From a virus: a stretch of 64,000 nt of DNA. Shown in pieces: positions 6,929 to 26,518 of the stretch (positions are counted from its first letter, which is position 1; each line of letters starts with the position of its first letter). The notes under the pieces were generated by a model. It worked only from the letters and a program-made list of their open reading frames with translations, made no database searches and was not told where the DNA came from. The stretch lies in the IMG/VR virus record IMGVR_UViG_3300028844_005756, positions 21,834 through 85,833 of that record, one strand, 5' to 3'. Position numbers and translations under genes: made by a program.

Positions 6929-7017
6929 CTTCAATGATTTTATTTGCTATCGGACTTGGATTGGGTTTTGGTGCTGGCATTTACCTGTCAAAAAATGTGT
7001 TGACAACTAAAGAATAA
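6925..7017 (+). CDS. 30-aa single-span membrane peptide
   Basis: Starts in an ATGA overlap with the dsbA-like stop, so it is translationally coupled. It encodes a short hydrophobic segment (SMILFAIGLGLGFGAGIYLS) and a charged tail LTTKE, i.e. one glycine-rich transmembrane helix. Small peptides of this type are common in T4-like genomes. The -35 box of the next promoter lies in its last codons. Function unknown. Confidence 0.6.
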   Translation: MTSMILFAIGLGLGFGAGIYLSKNVLTTKE

Positions 7018-7028
7018 TTTGTTATAAT
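7000..7028 (+). promoter_or_regulatory. Consensus promoter upstream of the 64-aa ORF and gene 44
   Basis: TTGACA (7000-7005), 17-nt spacer, TATAAT (7023-7028): both hexamers are perfect consensus. The predicted start near 7035 leaves almost no leader before ATG 7038, so it may mainly serve gene 44 and downstream genes. Confidence 0.75.
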
Positions 7029-7037
7029 GGAGTTGTT

Positions 7038-7232
7038 ATGAGAAGTAATAATAGGTTTGCAAAAGGAATTCGTAGAAAAGGAGCAATTGAGCGACTTGAA
7101 AAGAATATTGCAGACTATGTGACTCTTATGAAAGAGACTAAAGACAAGGATACTTTGAAAAAATATGAGCAAAAAATTGAAAGGCATCGGACTGCCGTTG
7201 AGAATACAAAGAAGAATTTGAAAAATATTTAA
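7038..7232 (+). CDS. Small basic coiled-coil protein
   Basis: 64 aa, strongly charged, predicted mostly helical with heptad-like leucine and isoleucine spacing (IERLEKNIADYVTLM, then LKKYEQKIERH). GGAG lies a few bases upstream, and the start region TTGTTATG resembles the T4 RegA target. It sits between the dsbA-like gene and gene 44. No known family is recognised. Confidence 0.65.
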   Translation: MRSNNRFAKGIRRKGAIERLEKNIADYVTLMKETKDKDTLKKYEQKIERHRTAVENTKKNLKNI

Positions 7233-7316
7233 ATGGAGTTATATTTTGAACTACCTAAAAATAAACAAATGTCTTTAAACCTGGAGTATGCAGATGCCAT
7301 ACAAAAAAATGAATGA
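7233..7316 (+). CDS. Possible 27-aa peptide before gene 44
   Basis: An ATG directly after the previous stop opens a 27-codon frame (MELYFELPKNKQ...). A competing very short frame starts at the ATG after CTGGAG near 7278. Neither can be told from chance in this AT-rich leader; the region may instead be untranslated leader of gene 44. Confidence 0.2.
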   Translation: MELYFELPKNKQMSLNLEYADAIQKNE

Positions 7317-7362
7317 ATAATTAATAGAGTGTAAATGCATAAATTTATATAATGGTATTATT

Positions 7363-8310
7363 ATGATTGTACGTGATGAATTTTTATGGGTACAGAAGTA
7401 TCGCCCTAAAAGTGTTAATGATTTAATTTTACCAGAAGATATTAAAAATACTTTAATATCTTTTGTTGAACAAGGTAGTTTGCCTAATTTTTTATTTCAT
7501 TCGCAATCAGGCGGTACTGGTAAGACTAGTGCCGCTCTCGCTATAGCTCATCAATTAAACCTAGAAGTAATGATGATCAATGCTTCTGAAGAAAGAAGTA
7601 TTGATATTATTCGTACAAAAATGACAGATTTCTGTTCTGCTATGTCTGTTGATGGCAGAAGAAAAATGTTAATTCTTGATGAGGCAGACCATCTTCCTGA
7701 TTTAAGTCAAAACGCTTTGAGAAACTTTTTTGAAAAGTTTTCTTCAAACTGTTCATTTGTTATGACTGCAAATCAAGCACAAAGAATTATTGCACCACTT
7801 CAATCAAGATGTGCAGTAATTGAATTTAAATTTCCAAAAGAAGAAAAACCCAAACTTGCTGGTGAGTTTTATCTAAGAGTGTGTCATATTCTTGACAGTG
7901 AAAACGTATCTTACGATAAAAAATTAATTCAACATGCAATTGTGCATTTCTTTCCGGATTTTCGCAGATGTATAAATGAACTCCAAAGATATAGTGCAAG
8001 TGGAGAATTATCAAATAATATTTTATCAAATGTTCAAAATGAAAGTATTGAAAACTTATTAGAGGCTATTGAAAATAAAAAATTTCAGTTAATAAGAAAA
8101 TTCATACTTGAAAATTGGCATGGTACTGAGCAAGAACTTTATCGTTCTCTCTACGAAGAACTTCTAAAAAATGCTAAACCAGAATGTATTCCCGATATTA
8201 TATTAATACTTTCTAAGTATGGATTTGAATCTACATTTGCTGTAGATAAAGAAATACATACATTAGCTTGTATGGTTGAACTAATGACATTACCTATACA
8301 ATTTAAGTGA
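7363..8310 (+). CDS. 44: Sliding-clamp loader ATPase subunit (T4 gp44-like)
   Basis: 315 aa, about the length of T4 gp44 (319). It starts with the clamp-loader signature FLWVQKYRPKSVNDLILP. Walker A is GGTGKTSA (50-57), Walker B LILDEADHL (103-111), and the SRC arginine-finger motif lies at 148-150. Together with gp62 it opens the gp45 ring and loads it at primer-template junctions using ATP. The start has no strong Shine-Dalgarno (GGTATTATTATG), which would suit control by RegA as for T4 gene 44. It is followed 6 nt later by gene 62. Confidence 0.93.
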   Translation: MIVRDEFLWVQKYRPKSVNDLILPEDIKNTLISFVEQGSLPNFLFHSQSGGTGKTSAALAIAHQLNLEVMMINASEERSIDIIRTKMTDFCSAMSVDGRRKMLILDEADHLPDLSQNALRNFFEKFSSNCSFVMTANQAQRIIAPLQSRCAVIEFKFPKEEKPKLAGEFYLRVCHILDSENVSYDKKLIQHAIVHFFPDFRRCINELQRYSASGELSNNILSNVQNESIENLLEAIENKKFQLIRKFILENWHGTEQELYRSLYEELLKNAKPECIPDIILILSKYGFESTFAVDKEIHTLACMVELMTLPIQFK

Positions 8311-8316
8311 GGTAAT

Positions 8317-8754
8317 ATGTCAACAAATGTTTTTGGTTTAGAGAACCATGAAGAAGTTGAATATGAATTAGAACCGCCCAAGAAAATAAATTTGTTTGAG
8401 TATGTAAAATCAATTAATACTAAAGAACAATATCTCGGAGATAATTTAGAAAATTACTCATCATATATAGTTAACAAGGCTATTGCCAGTTATCAAGATT
8501 GTATTTTTTTTGTAAAAGAGATGAATCTTTATCCTGCACTTAGTGATAAAATGGAGTATGACTTTTACTATTATAGTATTAGTAAAAGAAAAAGATTCGC
8601 TGAGTGGATGAAACGTGACCAAGATAAAATAGAACTTGTTAGCAAGTTTTATAATGTTTCTCTTAAAAAAGCTGCGGAGTTTCTGGATATACTATCCGAT
8701 AGTGAATTAAAAGACATAGAAAAATCACTAACTTATGGTGTTACAGAAAAATAA
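8317..8754 (+). CDS. 62: Clamp-loader small subunit (T4 gp62-like)
   Basis: 145 aa, shorter than T4 gp62 (187). The match is in the centre: MNLYPALSDKMEYDFYYYSISKRKRFAEW against the T4 pattern MNL.[26 protein letters not shown], followed by helical repeats. It has no ATPase motif, as expected; it acts as the fifth, inactive clamp-loader subunit. GTGAGGTAAT provides a ribosome-binding site 6 nt after the gene 44 stop. The position between 44 and regA is as in T4. Confidence 0.85.
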   Translation: MSTNVFGLENHEEVEYELEPPKKINLFEYVKSINTKEQYLGDNLENYSSYIVNKAIASYQDCIFFVKEMNLYPALSDKMEYDFYYYSISKRKRFAEWMKRDQDKIELVSKFYNVSLKKAAEFLDILSDSELKDIEKSLTYGVTEK

Positions 8755-8759
8755 AAAAA

Positions 8760-8767
8760 TATAAATA
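8760..8767 (+). promoter_or_regulatory. T4-type late promoter motif TATAAATA upstream of regA
   Basis: An exact match to the T4 late promoter -10 element, 47 nt before the regA ATG. In AT-rich DNA single matches can be chance, but this one is intergenic and properly oriented. Confidence 0.4.
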
Positions 8768-8813
8768 TATTTGATGAGAATTATATGTTAAAATAAATTA
8801 TTAAGGAGATTTT

Positions 8814-9236
8814 ATGTTATCCGAAGATACTATGAACGAAGATATATTTCGTGGCGTTGGAGTGGAAGTAGATTTAAAAAGTCAAGATGATTTTTTAAAA
8901 GTTAGAGAAACATTAACTAGAATTGGAATAGCTTCTAAAAAAGAAAAAAAATTATACCAATCTTGCCATATACTACATAAACGTGGAAGATATGTAATTT
9001 TATCTTTTAAAGAACTTTTTAAATTAGATGGTAAAGAAAGTAACTTTACTGAATCAGATTTAGCTAGAAGAAACACAATTGCTAAATTACTTCATGATTG
9101 GAATTTAGTTGAAATTAAAGATTTAAATCAAGTAGAAGAACCTTTGGTTCCAATTTCTCAAATAAAAATAATTCCACATAAAGAAAAGATTCAATGGGAA
9201 TTGGTAGCTAAGTACCAAGTTGGTTCTAAAAATTAA
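8814..9236 (+). CDS. regA: RegA translational repressor
   Basis: 140 aa (T4 RegA: 122). Similarity to T4 RegA is strong: DDFLKVRETLTRIGIASKK and LYQSCHILHKRGRYVILSFKELF match the T4 sequence nearly residue by residue, as do RRNTIAKLLHDWNLVEI and the C-terminal KIQWELVAKYQVG. There is an N-terminal extension of about 14 residues relative to T4; a second ATG at 8832 gives a shorter form. AAGGAG lies 8 nt upstream of ATG 8814. RegA binds AU-rich translation initiation sites of early phage mRNAs. In T4 the polymerase gene 43 follows; here it does not. Confidence 0.93.
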   Translation: MLSEDTMNEDIFRGVGVEVDLKSQDDFLKVRETLTRIGIASKKEKKLYQSCHILHKRGRYVILSFKELFKLDGKESNFTESDLARRNTIAKLLHDWNLVEIKDLNQVEEPLVPISQIKIIPHKEKIQWELVAKYQVGSKN

Positions 9237-9258
9237 TACCATTTACTAGTGATTTATT

Positions 9259-9453
9259 ATGAAAAAAATGACAGCATTCAAAAAAAGAACTAACATTAAA
9301 TTAATTGTTAGTTCTTTCAACACAAAAAAATTCATAAAAGAATTTATGAATTTAATGGATAATAAAGGTTTGAGTGAAGAACAAATAGATAAATTATTAT
9401 ATAATCATTGTCTATATGATAAAAATAGTCCATTAAAATTGAATAAAGGTTAA
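9259..9453 (+). CDS. Small duplicated protein, copy 1
   Basis: 64 aa, lysine-rich. It is a paralogue of the next gene: both contain F-K, then SFN.KKFI.EF, then LS.EQ, and end in the same 16 residues NHCLYDKNSPLKLNKG. The 3' ends are also identical in DNA (see the repeat entries). No domain recognised. It lies downstream of regA with a weak ribosome-binding site. Confidence 0.65.
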   Translation: MKKMTAFKKRTNIKLIVSSFNTKKFIKEFMNLMDNKGLSEEQIDKLLYNHCLYDKNSPLKLNKG

Positions 9454-9463
9454 TTATGGAAAA
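9402..9463 (+). repeat. 62-bp direct repeat, copy 1
   Basis: Matches 9602-9663 with one difference (T at 9454, C at 9654), exactly 200 nt away. It covers the 3' end of copy 1, its stop, and the start region of copy 2. Confidence 0.95.
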
Positions 9464-9653
9464 GGTGGTAGGTTTTAAACACCTAAAAGATAAAGAAAAT
9501 ATTCATACTAAATCTTTTAATAGAAAAAAATTTATAAATGAATTTGTAGAAGTCATTAAAAATGAAAAATTATCAAAAGAACAAAAAGTAGAAATACTTT
9601 CTAATCATTGTCTATATGATAAAAATAGTCCATTAAAATTGAATAAAGGTTAA
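9456..9653 (+). CDS. Small duplicated protein, copy 2
   Basis: 65 aa paralogue of the preceding gene, diverged in the first two thirds but identical in the last 16 residues. It starts 2 nt after the stop of copy 1, and its start codon lies inside the first 62-bp repeat. The second repeat likewise carries the start of the dUTPase gene. AAAGG before each ATG gives a shared translation signal. Function unknown. Confidence 0.65.
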   Translation: MEKVVGFKHLKDKENIHTKSFNRKKFINEFVEVIKNEKLSKEQKVEILSNHCLYDKNSPLKLNKG

Positions 9654-9663
9654 CTATGGAAAA
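9602..9663 (+). repeat. 62-bp direct repeat, copy 2
   Basis: Second copy of the repeat at 9402-9463. It covers the 3' end of the second paralogue and the first codons of dut. Confidence 0.95.
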
Positions 9664-10195
9664 CTGGAGAGTAGTGAATGATAATAATGAACCTGTTAAG
9701 TTAGGTGTTTATAGAATATATGAACATGCCATGTTACCTACTTTTGCTACAGATGGTTCAGCATGTTTTGATGTGTATGCTTCTTTACCAGATGAGTCAA
9801 CAGTTAAAGTATATAGCAGTAACTTTCAAGACTATGCTAAAGTACTTGTACGTTCTGATTGCATAACAATTTATAATGGTCATCGTGCTATGATTCCAAC
9901 TGGAATCATTTTTGATATTCCCCAAGGATACAGTGTACGCCTACATGCAAGATCTGGTTTAGCTTTAAAAAATGGTATTGTTTTAGTTAATCAGGAAGCC
10001 GTTATTGATTCTGATTATGTACAAGAAACATTTGTTTTAATTGAAAATACATCATTAGTTCCTTTTGAAGTGACAGATGGAATGAGAATTTGTCAAGGTG
10101 AACTAGTTAAAAATATACCAACACTCATCAATGAATCCGTAGTGCCACCGGAAGAACGCAATCGTAAAGGTGGCTTTGGTTCAACTGGTGTGTAA
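9656..10195 (+). CDS. dut: Trimeric dUTPase
   Basis: 179 aa. The five dUTPase motifs are visible in order: DGSACFDVYA (33-42), ARSGLALK (98-105), NQEAVIDSDY (112-121), ICQGELVK (145-152) and C-terminal RKGGFGSTG (170-178). The catalytic Asp in IDSDY and the P-loop-like C-terminal motif are intact. Motif 3 has A where G is usual before VIDSDY, and VQE follows instead of the usual xG. The enzyme hydrolyses dUTP to dUMP, keeping uracil out of phage DNA and feeding dTMP synthesis. A region around residues 45-75 is an insertion compared with compact bacterial enzymes. It overlaps speD by one base. Confidence 0.93.
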   Translation: MENWRVVNDNNEPVKLGVYRIYEHAMLPTFATDGSACFDVYASLPDESTVKVYSSNFQDYAKVLVRSDCITIYNGHRAMIPTGIIFDIPQGYSVRLHARSGLALKNGIVLVNQEAVIDSDYVQETFVLIENTSLVPFEVTDGMRICQGELVKNIPTLINESVVPPEERNRKGGFGSTGV

Positions 10196-10608
10196 TGAAA
10201 TTAGAACATAAACACTTTATAGTTAGAGCAGAAGTAGCAGGTACTCCTAAACTACAAGATATATCTTTTGTTGAAGATTGGATGTCACGTTTAATTAAAA
10301 GTGTTGGTATGGTTACTTTAATAGAACCTAAAGCGGTTTATTGTGACAAAGAAAATAATCGTGGAATTACGGCAATTGCCGCACTTACAACAAGTTCAAC
10401 AACATTACACATATGGGATGAGAAACCACCATGTTATTTACAATTTGATTTATATTCATGTAAATCATTTGACTATGAACATGTTTTACACGCAATCAAT
10501 GAATTCGGAATGACAAGATATGAATATTATATGTTAAATCGTGAAACTCCGTTTTCTCATATACACGCAAAAGGCCATGGACTCTTTGAACCGAGCATCT
10601 CTAAATGA
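10195..10608 (+). CDS. speD: S-adenosylmethionine decarboxylase proenzyme-like (SpeD)
   Basis: 137 aa, near the length of bacterial class 1B AdoMetDC. The core TTSSTTLHIWDE (65-76) aligns with the SESHLTIHTWPE cleavage region: Ser67 would become the pyruvoyl group, His72 matches the processing His, and Cys89 in FDLYSC matches the catalytic Cys. The usual His right after the cleavage Ser is Ser here. Decarboxylated AdoMet feeds spermidine synthesis, and polyamines can neutralise packaged DNA. speD is known from T4-like cyanophages. It is coupled to dut (TAATG). Confidence 0.85.
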   Translation: MKLEHKHFIVRAEVAGTPKLQDISFVEDWMSRLIKSVGMVTLIEPKAVYCDKENNRGITAIAALTTSSTTLHIWDEKPPCYLQFDLYSCKSFDYEHVLHAINEFGMTRYEYYMLNRETPFSHIHAKGHGLFEPSISK

Positions 10609-20809: not shown

Positions 20810-21550
20810 TCACCTAATTTTTCTTGCTGATTTTAATTTTTTCTTTCCTTGGCAATGTGCACGTTGGCTAAACCCCTTGGGGTTATTACAGTCAATGGAC
20901 TTTTTGTATTTCTTAGTCCATTTTTCAGCAATGTCATAAAATTGTTCTCTCAGAGCTTCAGATGCTTCGCCAGTAGGGTTTACATACCAACCATAAAACT
21001 TAGCATTAGGATAATCTTTTTTCAAAGAAACAAAAGAATTTAGATTTGCTTTTGAATCATCGTACATAATGACCTTATCGTAAGTATCCTTGTTCATCAG
21101 AGAAAGAATGATTTTTTTCTTGTTTTCCTCAATAGTTCCACCCTTCATGTTACCGGCACGGTATACATGAACTTTTTTCATATCAATTCCGTACTTACGA
21201 AAGGTATCTAAAAATAATTCTTTATCATCAAAGTCCGCTCTGGCAGTAACCATTACAACTTTATTCCCACGATTGATATCTCTCTTCAATTGTTTCATCA
21301 TAGGAATGATCGGTTTTGCATTATCAAAAAATTCTTTTGCATTGCGAAAGTTCTCAAAATCAAATTCTTCACCGTCCTTGAGTTTATAGTTGGTGAACTC
21401 ATGACTGTTCAGTTCCCTTATTTTTTTCCCATCTTTCATTACTCTAACTTTTGTTGATGTGTGAACCAACGTATCGTCAATATCAAAGACAACTAAAATT
21501 TTAGTGAGTGCCTCTTGCAAATTTAAAAAGAATTGTTTAAAGTTTTTCAT
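20810..21550 (-). CDS. HAD-superfamily phosphatase with capsid-targeting-like N-terminus
   Basis: 246 aa. HAD motifs: VVFDIDDTLVH (21-30, nucleophile Asp23), VVMVTARAD (T/S motif) and KVIMYDDSKAN (acidic motif). The N-terminus MKNFKQFFLNLQEA looks like T4 capsid-targeting peptides, with a possible gp21-type cut after LQE (residue 13). The C-terminus carries IDCNNPKGFSQRAHCQGKKK, a Cys/His motif I recall from tails of other marine phage proteins. It overlaps the upstream 630-aa gene by 4 nt, so both are made together. A polynucleotide or nucleotide phosphatase role is possible; the substrate is unknown. Confidence 0.8.
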   Translation of the reverse strand: MKNFKQFFLNLQEALTKILVVFDIDDTLVHTSTKVRVMKDGKKIRELNSHEFTNYKLKDGEEFDFENFRNAKEFFDNAKPIIPMMKQLKRDINRGNKVVMVTARADFDDKELFLDTFRKYGIDMKKVHVYRAGNMKGGTIEENKKKIILSLMNKDTYDKVIMYDDSKANLNSFVSLKKDYPNAKFYGWYVNPTGEASEALREQFYDIAEKWTKKYKKSIDCNNPKGFSQRAHCQGKKKLKSARKIR

Positions 21551-23439
21551 GTAAAATTGTATACACGGTTATTTAAATGTATTGCACCTTTCGGTGTAAG
21601 TTTTCTTCTGAAAATAGTAAATGCTATGTAGTTTAATTGTTCATCTAGTTTATTCTTTCGTACTTCTTCTGTTTCTTTTTCCAAGTCTTTAAAGAATCCA
21701 GGACCTAAATCTTTGAAATAATCATTCACTATTATATCTATAACTTTTGTTTCAAATTTAGGTTCTTTACTAAAATCGGTTATTGATTTAGTAGAATTAT
21801 GCATAAAGAATCCTTTGATTCCACTCGGCTCATCACTCTTCAATATCTTTTCAAATACTTCCAATTCTTTAGAATCTCCAAAATATTTTGCCATACCAGG
21901 CCAAATATCAACTGCAGCTAATTGTAGTTTCAATGGAACTTCTTTTTTAAGTTCATACCATCTATTTACCCATCTACCTAAGTCACGGACACTTGTATTC
22001 TTTTCTTTAGCTTCCTTTAATGCGAATATAAATGAATCAACATCTAGTTTAGAGTTTTCAAGTTCCATTAATACACGCACATGCATCGGCTCTTTTATGA
22101 ATGCCCACTTATAAAAATAGTTTAGAAATTTAGCATCATCAGTATAATGATGCATTCCAACGGCAGCATCTGGTTCCTTCTTGATTACTTCTTCTAGAAC
22201 ATCTTTGTCTAATTTAACATTGTAATCCTTACATGCTTTATAGAAAGTAGTCATTCTTGTATGCATTGCTACATTTCCTTTTGCATACAAAGGCCTAGTT
22301 TCTTTCATTGGATCGTATTTGTTCCTAATAATATCTTTTAAAATATAGTTAATCTTTTTTTCTTTAGAATCTAGTTTCTTATATTCAATTGCATGTGGTG
22401 TTTTATCCTCATATGTTTTATTATCAATGATATCCAATACTTTATAACCTGCTCTGGATAAAAATACTGCTTGTACAGGCTCTGCCTCATGAATAATTCC
22501 ATAACCACTTCTATCACTAATAGAATCATATCCAATATTAATCAACAAATTAGCCCATGCGTTAGCCGCTGGTTTTGCACCTTTCTTTTCATTTGGTGAT
22601 GGGTCTTTCATTATTACCAAATCAAATTTAAAATCTCTAGATTCTTTTTTAATAAATTTATACGGGTCAGTTTTCATTTCTGCTGGAACTGATTCAACTT
22701 TATCTGGTAAAAAATCTTTTATTTTATCTTTTTCTGTTAAGTCTACTTCTGCATTAAAGCTAGTTGGACCTTCAGCATCCTTTAAAGTATAAACCATATT
22801 GTATGTGTTATCCTTGTCATATTCTTTTGAAGTTGCTGTAAGTTGTTTTACTTTCCTTGCTTGTGCAATTAATCCAGAAACTGTTCTAGTTATGTTCCAA
22901 AATTCAGCACCACGATTTTCAGCCTTTGCACCTTTCATTGAATGCTCAATAACAGACAACATCATATAATACATTAGCTTTTCATTTTTAATATTCAATA
23001 CATCCATCAATTTTTTAGAGGCATACTCAATTATTTTTCTCACATCCTTTTCTAGCATAGCTTGCTTATAATCTCTACCAACATCATTAATATTTTTATT
23101 ACCCTTTCTTTTAAGAATAGCTATTTTAGGTTTTTCTTTTACAAAAGGAACATTAAATCTTTTATATTCTTTACCACCACTATACATTAAATAAACTTCT
23201 TCTAGAGGATATGTGTATACACCATTCGGAGTGTTGAATTTTGATTTGGTGTTCAATCCTACTTGTGCTGATAGTTCACCGCTTTTACCTGTTTCTGTAA
23301 ATTCTTTTGCATTAGATATGAATGAAATAAAAATATCTGGGTCCTTCTCATATTTTAACAATGCCTCAACAGGAAATTGTTTTACATTCAATTCTGGATT
23401 TCTTCTAGCTTCTGTTAAAATAGTTGTAAATGATTTCAT
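21547..23439 (-). CDS. 630-aa putative internal head protein with capsid-targeting-like N-terminus
   Basis: Begins MKSFTTILTEA, matching the T4 internal-protein leader pattern, with a possible prohead-protease cut after LTE (residue 10). Downstream, FNTPNGVYTYPLEEVY (about 68-83) and YGIIHEAEPVQAVFLSRAGYKVLD (about 315-340) look like conserved catalytic or binding loops, but I cannot assign a family. The C-terminal 250 residues are helical, with repeated W and LK segments. It leads a two-gene minus-strand unit with the HAD phosphatase, 46 nt behind a TATAAATA late-promoter motif. Late expression and the leader both fit packaging in the capsid. Confidence 0.7.
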   Translation of the reverse strand: MKSFTTILTEARRNPELNVKQFPVEALLKYEKDPDIFISFISNAKEFTETGKSGELSAQVGLNTKSKFNTPNGVYTYPLEEVYLMYSGGKEYKRFNVPFVKEKPKIAILKRKGNKNINDVGRDYKQAMLEKDVRKIIEYASKKLMDVLNIKNEKLMYYMMLSVIEHSMKGAKAENRGAEFWNITRTVSGLIAQARKVKQLTATSKEYDKDNTYNMVYTLKDAEGPTSFNAEVDLTEKDKIKDFLPDKVESVPAEMKTDPYKFIKKESRDFKFDLVIMKDPSPNEKKGAKPAANAWANLLINIGYDSISDRSGYGIIHEAEPVQAVFLSRAGYKVLDIIDNKTYEDKTPHAIEYKKLDSKEKKINYILKDIIRNKYDPMKETRPLYAKGNVAMHTRMTTFYKACKDYNVKLDKDVLEEVIKKEPDAAVGMHHYTDDAKFLNYFYKWAFIKEPMHVRVLMELENSKLDVDSFIFALKEAKEKNTSVRDLGRWVNRWYELKKEVPLKLQLAAVDIWPGMAKYFGDSKELEVFEKILKSDEPSGIKGFFMHNSTKSITDFSKEPKFETKVIDIIVNDYFKDLGPGFFKDLEKETEEVRKNKLDEQLNYIAFTIFRRKLTPKGAIHLNNRVYNFT

Positions 23440-23484
23440 AATACTAAAAAGATTTTTTGATAAATAAATGTATTGGTTATGTTA

Positions 23485-23492
23485 TATTTATA
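23485..23492 (-). promoter_or_regulatory. T4-type late promoter motif for the 630-aa/HAD unit
   Basis: TATAAATA on the minus strand (TATTTATA on plus), 46 nt upstream of the ATG at 23439, in the divergent intergenic region. Confidence 0.5.
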
Positions 23493-23513
23493 AAATTTAA
23501 AATGGAGTATCTT

Positions 23514-23765
23514 ATGCCAAGCTATGATTATCACTGTGATACCTGCGAAAATGATTTTGAAATTTTTATGTCAATTTCAAAAAGACATGAACCTATTAAT
23601 GAAGAATGTTCAAAAAATAACTGTTCTCTTAAATTAAAAGTTTCATCACCAACTATCGGTTACGATAATTTTTCTTTAACTGGTAAAAAACCAGATGAAG
23701 GCTTTCGGGATAAGTTAAGAGAAATGAAAAGAAACATTCCTGGAAATACAATTAATGTGGATTAA
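23514..23765 (+). CDS. Zinc-ribbon protein (FmdB-like)
   Basis: 83 aa from ATG 23514, with AATGGAG 8 nt upstream. The N-terminus SYDYHCDTCENDFEIF holds the first CxxC pair, and Cys in EECSKNNCSLKL gives the second, as in FmdB-family zinc ribbons. The C-terminal part is short and basic. Such small proteins are common in T4-like phages, probably as nucleic-acid or protein adaptors. It runs divergently from the 630-aa gene. Confidence 0.65.
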   Translation: MPSYDYHCDTCENDFEIFMSISKRHEPINEECSKNNCSLKLKVSSPTIGYDNFSLTGKKPDEGFRDKLREMKRNIPGNTINVD

Positions 23766-23767
23766 TT

Positions 23768-23841
23768 AAAGGAGGTTTCTAATAGAGAGATATTAAATAG
23801 CTCACTCGGGTTTTATATTCTGAGTGAGTGATAGCAAACCT
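23768..23841 (+). promoter_or_regulatory. Structured leader of phoH with orphan Shine-Dalgarno
   Basis: AAAGGAGG (23768-23775) is a perfect Shine-Dalgarno with no ATG, GTG or TTG at useful distance. AGGTTT (23773-23778) can pair with AAACCT (about 23836-23841), enclosing a 7-bp hairpin CTCACTC/GAGTGAG (23801-23807 with 23822-23828). The phoH start is at 23876. Confidence 0.4.
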
Positions 23842-23875
23842 GAGTAATTCTTGTTAAAACAATACGGAGTTACTT

Positions 23876-24670
23876 ATGTCAAGAAAAAAGACACAAACTT
23901 CTAACCAAAACCGCGGATTGCAATTAAGAGAAATTGAGCCGATGACTAATGCTCAAAATTTATTATTCAATTCTTTTTATGATGGTCATCATGTAATTTC
24001 AATGGGAACGGCGGGTACAGGTAAATCTTTTTTATCTATTTTTCTTGGGTTAGAAGCAGTGTTTGACCCACATTCTCCATACAAAAAAGTTCTCATATGT
24101 AGGTCTTGTGTGCCTTCTAGAGACATTGGTTTTTTACCAGGAACTGAAGAAGAAAAAATTTCTGTTTATAAAAGACCATATCAATCTATTGTGCAAGAAC
24201 TTTTTAAAAGAGATGACGCTTGGGAAATTCTTGAAAAGAAGGGAGTAGTGGAGTTCTGTTCTACTTCTTTTTTAAGAGGAACAACTATAGATAATACAAT
24301 TATCTTTGTTGATGAAATTCAAAATTTAGCTTATAACGAAATTCATAACGTAGTCACTCGCATAGGAAAGGATTCGGCTTTAATTTTGGCAGGAGATTTT
24401 GGACAAATGGATTTAGATATGGAAGAAAGTGGGATTAAAGATTTTTTTGAAATAGCTAAAAAAACAAAAGGTTTTAAAATCGTGGTGTTTCAAGAAAAAG
24501 ATATTGTCCGAAATGATTTTATTAGAGATTATATTATAGCTAAAAATCAATATGATAAAGAGAAAAAAGAAAGGATATTATACAATGGTCACAAAGTACA
24601 AAGAGAACCTTTTAATAATATTGTAGTTGCTGGTCAGCGATATTCTATAGAAGCAACCCCCGTAAATTAA
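23876..24670 (+). CDS. phoH: PhoH-like ATPase
   Basis: 264 aa. Walker A GTAGTGKSF (44-52), RSCVPSRDIGFLPGT (77-90), which is the PhoH signature loop, Walker B IIFVDEIQN (142-150), and AGDFGQMDLD, the PhoH sensor region. PhoH proteins are RNA/DNA helicase-related ATPases common in marine phages; the cellular role is linked to phosphate starvation in some hosts but unsettled. TACGGAG precedes ATG. A hairpin follows the gene. Confidence 0.9.
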   Translation: MSRKKTQTSNQNRGLQLREIEPMTNAQNLLFNSFYDGHHVISMGTAGTGKSFLSIFLGLEAVFDPHSPYKKVLICRSCVPSRDIGFLPGTEEEKISVYKRPYQSIVQELFKRDDAWEILEKKGVVEFCSTSFLRGTTIDNTIIFVDEIQNLAYNEIHNVVTRIGKDSALILAGDFGQMDLDMEESGIKDFFEIAKKTKGFKIVVFQEKDIVRNDFIRDYIIAKNQYDKEKKERILYNGHKVQREPFNNIVVAGQRYSIEATPVN

Positions 24671-24687
24671 TCTAAATACACAAGGTA

Positions 24688-24707
24688 GGGGAATTTTAAT
24701 ATTCCCC
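24688..24707 (+). terminator. Hairpin after phoH
   Basis: GGGGAAT (24688-24694), 6-nt loop, ATTCCCC (24701-24707). GC-rich stem but followed by CAAAAC rather than U, so a weak terminator or an RNA 3'-end stabiliser. Confidence 0.5.
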
Positions 24708-24723
24708 CAAAACGAGAAAGTAA

Positions 24724-25128
24724 ATGCAAGAATATGAAGACATAGTAAATGATGTTTTAGATTTTTGCAAATCTAGAAAGTATACAGTAGCAGGCATAGA
24801 CAAATTATTTGAACATGAAGATTTTAATATACATAATGATGAAGTTATAGCAAGAATAATGCTTTATAACCATGCTCCATTAATGCTTGAAGTTTATAAT
24901 ACAAATACATTAGGATTGTTTTTTAATCTTTTTGAATGTGATCCATTTTCAGCAAGTTTATTTACTAAAGAATTTTTAGAAAAAAAAGTAGATATAATTT
25001 CTGCATTTGTTGAAATGAAAAATTCAGAAGGAAAAATAACTAAATTACTTTTTGGTGAAAAAGCAGTAGAACAATATGCAAAAGAACGTAAAACTAAATC
25101 AGAAACACCATTATTATTTTTAAATTAA
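24724..25128 (+). CDS. Hypothetical 134-aa protein
   Basis: Acidic, mostly helical (EYEDIVNDVLDFCKSRKYTV), with a hydrophobic centre (LGLFFNLFECDPFSASLF). It ends one nt before the amidoligase-like gene and is probably cotranslated with it. No family recognised. Confidence 0.6.
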   Translation: MQEYEDIVNDVLDFCKSRKYTVAGIDKLFEHEDFNIHNDEVIARIMLYNHAPLMLEVYNTNTLGLFFNLFECDPFSASLFTKEFLEKKVDIISAFVEMKNSEGKITKLLFGEKAVEQYAKERKTKSETPLLFLN

Positions 25129-25129
25129 A

Positions 25130-26518
25130 ATGCTACCATTTAAAAGTTTTTTAACTGAAGGTATTAAAAAAAATCAAATAGATCAAGTCTTCAGCAACAA
25201 TGATTTCAAAGTTGGTCTTGAATTTGAATTTTACAATGAAAGATTCTTAGAAGATAGCAATCGTCCGAGCGCAGAAGAAACATTACTACTTGGTACACTT
25301 TCTGATTTACTCACTGGTGCAAAGAAAAAAAATAGAAACATATTGAATAATAATCGTAATGTTGAAAAGAACAAAAGAAATAAAATCATAACAGATGATG
25401 ATATTTTAAATGATTTTCAGACAAGAGAACGTAAGATATTATTAGGATATTTCAAAAGACAAGGATTAAATGAGAAAACTGTTGCGGACTACATCTACTA
25501 CATTGTAGCTCAAGCAGGCTCTAGATTTAAAGAGTTGTATTATCCTCAAAATTATAAACAAGATGTATTTGACAGAGTGAAAAGACAACTAAGAAAGTTG
25601 GAAAAATTTATGGATTTGCTGAACGCACAAACAGATGAGAATGTTCCATTTGCAGACGTAAGAAAATTCTATAAGCAAGAAAGAAATTTACCACCATTCA
25701 TCAAGAATCCATTGATATCTAGTAAGCATGGTGCTACTGCAAAAGCAAATAGATGGGCAATTGTAATTGACCAATCAATTTCACCAGCACTCGGTGGTAT
25801 AGAGATGGTAAGTCCTGTGATGAGACCGCAAGAGGCATTAGAAGTAACTGATAAAATGTTCAACTACATTAGAAATGTTGGTAATACAAAATCAATGGCA
25901 TCTGCAGATGAATTTGAAGAATCAGACCCAGATTACAATGTAAGGGATGTGCAATGTGGATTACACATCAACATATCATTTACACCAGAAAGAATGAAAA
26001 AGTTTGATGCATTAAAATTTTTACTCTTCTCTCATGAATCTCAAGTGAATAATAAAAAATTATTTGGAGATAGAAAAGATGCTGAATTTATAGATGGTAC
26101 TTTAAAAGAAATAAAAGATAATTATTTTCGTACTGCAAAAACAGTAAATTTGTCACCAGAATCTTTAGGAAAATGGTTAGATGAAAAAGTAAAAAAGAAC
26201 AATATGAAAACAGGTATAGCAGTATTAGTAAGCACATTACAGCTTTTTGATAAGTATACCAATATCAATTACTCTCACTACAAATTCAGTAATAGAACTA
26301 TTCGCAGAGCAGGTTCAGAACGTATTGAAATTCGTTACTTTGGTGGTGAAGGATATGAGGATAAAATTATGACTTTCAGAAGAGTTCTTGGTGAGTTGTT
26401 ATATGCTCTGGATGTAGCTACAGATCCTGAAAAAGAAAAAGATAGATACTATAAGAAAGTTTATAAAATTTTAAATAGTATAAAAGAGTTTGATAAAGAA
26501 AAATCAAAGCGAAAGTGA
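25130..26518 (+). CDS. Amidoligase-like enzyme with capsid-targeting-like N-terminus
   Basis: 462 aa. The N-terminus MLPFKSFLTEG resembles capsid-targeting leaders, with a possible cut after LTE (residue 10). The catalytic part looks like the COOH-NH2 (glutamine-synthetase-like) ligase fold: FKVGLEFEFY (26-35) with paired Glu, WAIVIDQSISPALGGIEMVSPV, CGLHINISF and ERIEIRYFGGEGYEDK near the C-terminus. These families join amino and carboxyl groups with ATP. A charged insertion of about 140 residues follows the first motif. The substrate is unknown; modification of peptidoglycan or proteins after injection is speculation. Confidence 0.7.
   Translation: MLPFKSFLTEGIKKNQIDQVFSNNDFKVGLEFEFYNERFLEDSNRPSAEETLLLGTLSDLLTGAKKKNRNILNNNRNVEKNKRNKIITDDDILNDFQTRERKILLGYFKRQGLNEKTVADYIYYIVAQAGSRFKELYYPQNYKQDVFDRVKRQLRKLEKFMDLLNAQTDENVPFADVRKFYKQERNLPPFIKNPLISSKHGATAKANRWAIVIDQSISPALGGIEMVSPVMRPQEALEVTDKMFNYIRNVGNTKSMASADEFEESDPDYNVRDVQCGLHINISFTPERMKKFDALKFLLFSHESQVNNKKLFGDRKDAEFIDGTLKEIKDNYFRTAKTVNLSPESLGKWLDEKVKKNNMKTGIAVLVSTLQLFDKYTNINYSHYKFSNRTIRRAGSERIEIRYFGGEGYEDKIMTFRRVLGELLYALDVATDPEKEKDRYYKKVYKILNSIKEFDKEKSKRK

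Follow-up and report, generated by a model that had tools for sequence, protein, structure and literature searches.

Capsid-targeting-like leaders on three genes of an uncultured T4-like phage: a probable head-packaged protein set

Three leader-bearing genes and the leader pattern

We analyzed a 64-kb stretch of DNA (hereafter, the window; positions 21834-85833 of the contig in IMG/VR record IMGVR_UViG_3300028844_005756), in which three genes encode proteins beginning with short leaders that resemble the capsid-targeting sequences of phage T4 internal head proteins. The whole contig spans 85.8 kb and is a fragment of a phage genome. Judging from the genes in the window, which include those for a gp45-type clamp, a PhoH-like protein and a gp6-type baseplate wedge, the phage is a T4-like myovirus; its gp6 is less than 60% identical to every entry in the phage collection. 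The three leader genes, which have baseplate and tail genes in their vicinity, comprise the following features (window coordinates):

20810..21550, minus strand: HAD-superfamily phosphatase of 246 amino acids (aa) with a C-terminal basic module (Pfam DUF2608 over the cut-off; PHROG 415); its start overlaps the stop of the gene for the 630-aa protein
21512..21550, minus strand: leader MKNFKQFFLNLQE of the phosphatase, 13-residue form, ending in LQE followed by A; predicted cut after E13; two further genes on the contig share this form
21547..23439, minus strand: 630-aa protein, the first gene of a two-gene operon, with homologues in IMG/VR
23410..23439, minus strand: leader MKSFTTILTE followed by A, 10-residue form; predicted cut after E10, invariant in nine homologues
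23485..23492, minus strand: TATAAATA, identical to the T4 late-promoter consensus and located 46-53 nucleotides before the start of the 630-aa protein
25130..26518, plus strand: amidoligase-like protein of 462 aa (Pfam Amidoligase_2 match just below the cut-off), with homologues
25130..25159, plus strand: leader MLPFKSFLTE followed by G, 10-residue form; predicted cut after E10, invariant in four homologues

The three open reading frames (ORFs) and their N-termini, with leaders ending in L-x-E, are exactly as a preliminary description of the window had given them in position and sequence. The leaders come in two lengths, a 10-residue form, M-x-x-[FY]-x-x-[hydrophobic]-[LI]-x-E, and a 13-residue form in which three extra residues are inserted. 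Both 10-residue leaders have F4, I7 or F7, L8 and E10, and thus the arrangement typical of T4 capsid-targeting sequences (aromatic residue at position 4, hydrophobic at 7, L or I at 8, E at 10), which the phosphatase displays in the 13-residue form. These positions agree with those important in the T4 IPIII leader, where 4 and 7 contribute to targeting, and 8 and 10 to processing (PMC9026906).

A loose leader pattern, with matches at approximately 1-2% of internal Met codons, proved too noisy; instead, we used a strict, T4-derived pattern, M[KRL]x[FY]xx[FILVMY](xxx)?[LIFVM]xE, the 13-residue option of which was introduced only after the leaders described here had been seen; used alone, the 10-residue form matches the 630-aa and amidoligase-like proteins. 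At the other gene starts in the window, the strict pattern found no match, confirming the earlier statement that no other gene there carries the leader. Elsewhere on the contig, where the preliminary description had proposed looking for the same leader, two more genes matched, approximately 14.5-14.9 kb upstream of the window start:

contig 6958-7170, minus strand: DUF3008 mini-protein with the leader MKRYSEFWEVILE followed by K
contig 7167-7331, minus strand: 54-aa protein with the leader MKSFKLFLDQITE followed by A, adjoining the DUF3008 gene

The five matching gene starts, three within and two outside the window, correspond to 5 of the 306 near-start Met codons of the contig, compared with none of its 459 deep internal Met codons. 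Across nine T4-like genomes or genome fragments, which include our own contig and in seven of which gp21 was seen, the pattern matched 13 of 6969 near-start and 2 of 7415 internal Met codons. Further IMG/VR and cyanophage loci, a non-random sample chosen through related genes, yielded 42 matching starts versus 6 internal matches. No match was found in five phages without gp21 (0/1405 near-start and 0/1649 internal Met codons). At the pooled internal rate (8/15011), the probability of three matches in about 62 genes is approximately 6e-6, and that of five matches in 87 genes approximately 1.5e-9. The leaders are a genuine feature, and chance is a very poor account of them. In T4 itself, the pattern matched IPII- and IPIII-type leaders, gp61.1 and one probable false positive resembling thymidylate synthase. 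T4 gp61.1 (a hypothetical protein; NC_000866 18966-19130, minus strand) begins with MKTFKEFIKE followed by D, a capsid-targeting-like leader.

The promoter-like sequence TATAAATA occurs 11 times in the 85.8 kb (both strands), with 5 copies located at most 100 nucleotides upstream of a gene, compared with about 0.6 expected. The predicted mature forms of the three proteins are basic, with isoelectric points of 9.1-9.6, and in full length they occupy ranks 4, 7 and 8 among 55 by this measure. Searching a library of defense systems returned nothing relevant.

Protein families, the cargo slot and a second site

The family of the 630-aa protein has nine members, all from uncultured phages in IMG/VR, which are 25-63% identical to the window protein and all retain the leader; E10, the predicted P1 glutamate, is among only 23 invariant columns of the nine-member alignment. 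Searches of Pfam, NCBIfam, PHROG and PDB yielded no family or fold match, and neither the 630-aa protein nor two diverged homologues had a relative among annotated phages. The structure model was of low confidence, with no match in PDB and one, nameless, fold match in a viral library. Thus, the preliminary designation of all three proteins as enzymes is unsupported for this one. The set of leader-bearing genes is larger than three. The idea that the protein is an ADP-ribosyltransferase, based on its GIYTYPL and IHxxEPxQAVF blocks, was not supported by the family, PDB or fold searches.

The gene slot following the 630-family gene, occupied in the window by the phosphatase gene, differs among related phages. 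It holds a 47-aa leader-plus-module gene (MKTYKDFCIYLSE followed by KWTEKYKKSIDC..) in L006, a 76-aa gene carrying the same type of module as the phosphatase C-terminus in L132, and, in L133, two genes whose products measure 365 aa (MITNFKTFLLE followed by S) and 107 aa. In L137:6991-10639, three genes begin with MLSYKE[YF]LxE; two are 630-family copies, and the third is weakly matched to an ADP-ribose glycohydrolase family. Further leader-bearing candidates lie next to 630-family relatives (L185:5635-6978 and L140:12083-13585): one resembles a metallopeptidase, with a HEWAH motif and a weak match, and the other is a poly(A)-polymerase/HD protein.

The amidoligase-like protein matched Amidoligase_2 (PF12224) with an E-value of 6e-4 and 20.2 bits, against a gathering cut-off of 22. 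The GLEFEF and CGLHINIS blocks are kept among its homologues, and E10 is invariant in four amidoligases, even where one leader is shortened to MKVLLE followed by G. One weak relative was found among annotated phages, and a fold search with a low-confidence model gave no significant match. A second Amidoligase_2-like gene, barely over the Pfam cut-off and without a leader, lies on the same contig (L001:18282-19067).

The phosphatase has a complete set of HAD motifs, namely, DIDDTL (DxDxT), MVTAR (T) and MYDDS (DD), and is related to PHROG 415 (polynucleotide kinase; E-value 1.6e-11); as a guess, it might act in RNA or DNA end-healing. Toward its C-terminus, the sequence ..DIAE precedes a separate module, so that a second, internal site (IAE followed by K) is predicted:

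20813..20923, minus strand: C-terminal module KWTKKYKKSIDCNNPKGFSQRAHCQGKKK.., 37 aa, charge approximately +13, following the IAE of the second predicted cut; the module occurs in many phages

Modules of this type are also found at the starts of proteins, behind leaders, and within mosaic proteins encoded near gp16/gp17 and gp23 of cyanophages. Among 98 module contexts with at least 4 residues upstream, 90 have a Glu two residues before the conserved Trp, compared with a background Glu frequency of 7%, and 77 of these 90 have a hydrophobic P3. In a set thinned to 44 contexts dissimilar to one another, 37 retained the Glu, with every other position at 23% or below. Other modules of the mosaic proteins likewise show a tendency to come after a hydrophobic-x-E site (27/33, 16/32, 13/19 and 5/12, against a 12% background), and no such site was seen for the recurring SKAQQ module, which mostly begins at Met. 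This layout of sites and modules would fit a head polyprotein cut by gp21.

A further observation concerns the region near the end of the contig (L001:1680-6838), where ORFs resemble, by eye only, a purine-biosynthesis cluster.

Leader-bearing proteins in cyanophage virions

In this analysis, leaders of the same form were identified on enzymes that others have detected in purified virions of marine cyanophages (PMC10665884, PMC9602691 and PMC3037559). The S-CREM2 virion proteome comprises 52 proteins (PMC10665884), including 3 of the 3 proteins with a strict leader, a SAM hydrolase, an APH-like kinase and a cytidylyltransferase (P = 0.011), and 5 of the 6 with a looser leader pattern (P = 0.0024), the sets being small and the test partly independent. 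For the NMNAT that was detected in S-SCSM1 virions (PMC9602691), the corresponding protein begins with MKSFLQFLKE followed by A. T4-GC190 is a cluster seen in S-SM1 virions (PMC3037559), and its S-SM1 homologue begins with MKKFSAFLNE followed by A. All non-structural, non-lysis enzymes that could be checked in the published cyanophage virion proteomes have leaders or sites. The S-CREM2 major capsid protein has LTE followed by A near its N-terminus.

In the Cas9-like nuclease of S-CREM2 virions (L263:7704-10313, OR473000.1), LRFASFMAE is followed by A at residue 25, which suggests that this protein, too, may be head-packaged. A short post-leader domain, KAxxLxLxxxGxGxWxD..GKL, is common to a nucleotidyltransferase, an APH-like kinase and the Cas9-like protein (L263:10579-12846, 7704-10313; L180:10761-11984). 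The proteins sharing it were found in virions or belong to a virion-detected cluster.

We found no discussion of the leader in the passages of these papers examined, and in the open-access literature no paper on capsid targeting in cyanophages apart from one review mentioning both terms.

Packaging, its alternatives and comparison with known systems

Packaging in the head and trimming by a gp21-type protease are likely and form the best explanation of these observations, and injection into the host together with the DNA is probable by analogy. The three products would be internal head proteins, each docked into the prohead core by its N-terminal leader. During head maturation, a gp21-type protease would cut after (L/I)xE, and the trimmed proteins would stay alongside the DNA in the head and pass into the host upon infection. 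In T4 IPIII, Asp at position 10 prevents this cutting and leaves targeting intact. The phosphatase would be cut once more after IAE, freeing a small basic peptide. The loaded set would be a variable cassette, with different leader-bearing genes in the slot after the 630-family gene among related phages. By analogy with T4 Alt, IPI and IPIII, its purpose may be early host take-over or counter-defense. The latter is a natural hypothesis because IPI of T4, once injected, blocks a restriction system, and T4 requires IPIII on one wild strain (PMC9391042).

Co-packaging and gp21-type cutting, as proposed in the preliminary description, are strongly, if indirectly, supported by the conservation of the leader and its P1 Glu, by gp21 in relatives and by the leader-bearing enzymes of cyanophage virions; the late-promoter match ahead of the operon and the basic charge of the predicted mature proteins also speak for them. 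The protease sought in this connection, of the S77 type, was found on two contigs carrying 630-family homologues (G011 and G013) and in every complete T4-like genome checked. Several points weigh against packaging and trimming: the 85.8-kb contig, itself a fragment, contains no gp21-type protease; the 13-residue leader length, and K as the residue following the second site, depart from the classical T4 form; the virion data come from phages other than this one and its close relatives; some S-CREM2 virion proteins of unknown function have no clear leader; and some of the authors of the proteome studies allow that enzymes may have co-purified with virions.

The leader could instead be an uncut peptide docking these proteins to another virion or replication complex, such as the baseplate, tail or membrane. 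An amphipathic N-terminal peptide could dock elsewhere, the genes are near baseplate and tail genes, and cleavage is predicted here from sequence only. We consider this improbable: conservation is centered on the P1 Glu and the hydrophobic P3, which are relevant to processing in T4 (PMC9026906), the same site recurs before internal modules, and the pattern is missing from the five phages without gp21. Equally improbable, in our estimate, is that the proteins are packaged and trimmed as core or scaffold components with no role in the new host. The T4 core proteins gp22, gp67 and gp68 are likewise gp21 substrates (PMC9026906) and loss of IPIII reduces T4 head assembly, but the HAD motifs are intact, the cargo in the same slot varies between related phages, unlike a structural part, and the leader-bearing virion proteins reported for other phages are enzymes. 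Chance has a negligible probability: L-x-E is common within the first 15 residues in Lys/Glu-rich proteomes of AT-rich phages, as the noise of the loose pattern illustrates, but such an origin is contradicted by the strict-pattern counts on the contig and by the glutamate being kept in 630-family homologues just 25-63% identical.

With packaging and trimming as the preferred reading, the system, known here from its sequence, appears to work like the T4 internal-protein system. As in T4 IPI, IPII and IPIII, a short leader (aromatic residue at 4, hydrophobic at 7, L/I at 8, E at 10) precedes basic mature proteins and variable cargo. In contrast to these, the window cargo extends to larger proteins (233-620 aa after predicted trimming), one of them a recognizable phosphatase, the leader also has a 13-residue form, a second internal site precedes a separable module, and the phage is uncultured. 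T4 Alt, a packaged and injected ADP-ribosyltransferase, is a larger head protein with an N-terminus trimmed by gp21 and, as proposed for the phosphatase, is also cut near the C-terminus, whereas the 630-aa family has no sequence or fold relation that we found to Alt-type enzymes. The cyanophage virion enzymes (those of S-CREM2, S-SCSM1 NMNAT and T4-GC190) share the form of the leader, and differ from the window proteins in the enzymes and hosts involved. A role in conflict with the host, after packaging and injection, is also predicted for polyvalent proteins (Iyer et al. 2017, PMC5512222), but each of these is one multidomain polypeptide, whereas the window contains separate genes with a common address tag; being separate single-activity ORFs, the window proteins are not polyvalent proteins. 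New here are the larger size of the cargo, a leader of a second length, a second site tied to a module, and the leader match with virion-detected enzymes elsewhere.

We lean, by a small measure, toward a broader proposal, namely, that marine and freshwater T4-like phages share a general address code, in which an (L/I)xE leader loads the head with unrelated enzymes for delivery before gene expression, and the same protease sites part the modules of head polyproteins, with gp21 freeing several basic peptides per chain. The enzymes addressed in this way would, with the same slight preference, include the phosphatase, the amidoligase-like protein, nucleotidyltransferases, kinases, the SAM hydrolase and the Cas9-like protein. 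If so, the code would account for the recurrent nucleotidyltransferases and kinases in cyanophage virions, for which co-purification could not be excluded. For such a phage, a large share of the injected proteins could be predicted from its genome by the leaders alone, and the injected effectors of abundant T4-like phages of oceans and lakes would become readable from sequence, including metagenomes. The proteins named here would then be candidates for first-response counter-defense, a role demonstrated for T4 IPI and proposed for IPIII.

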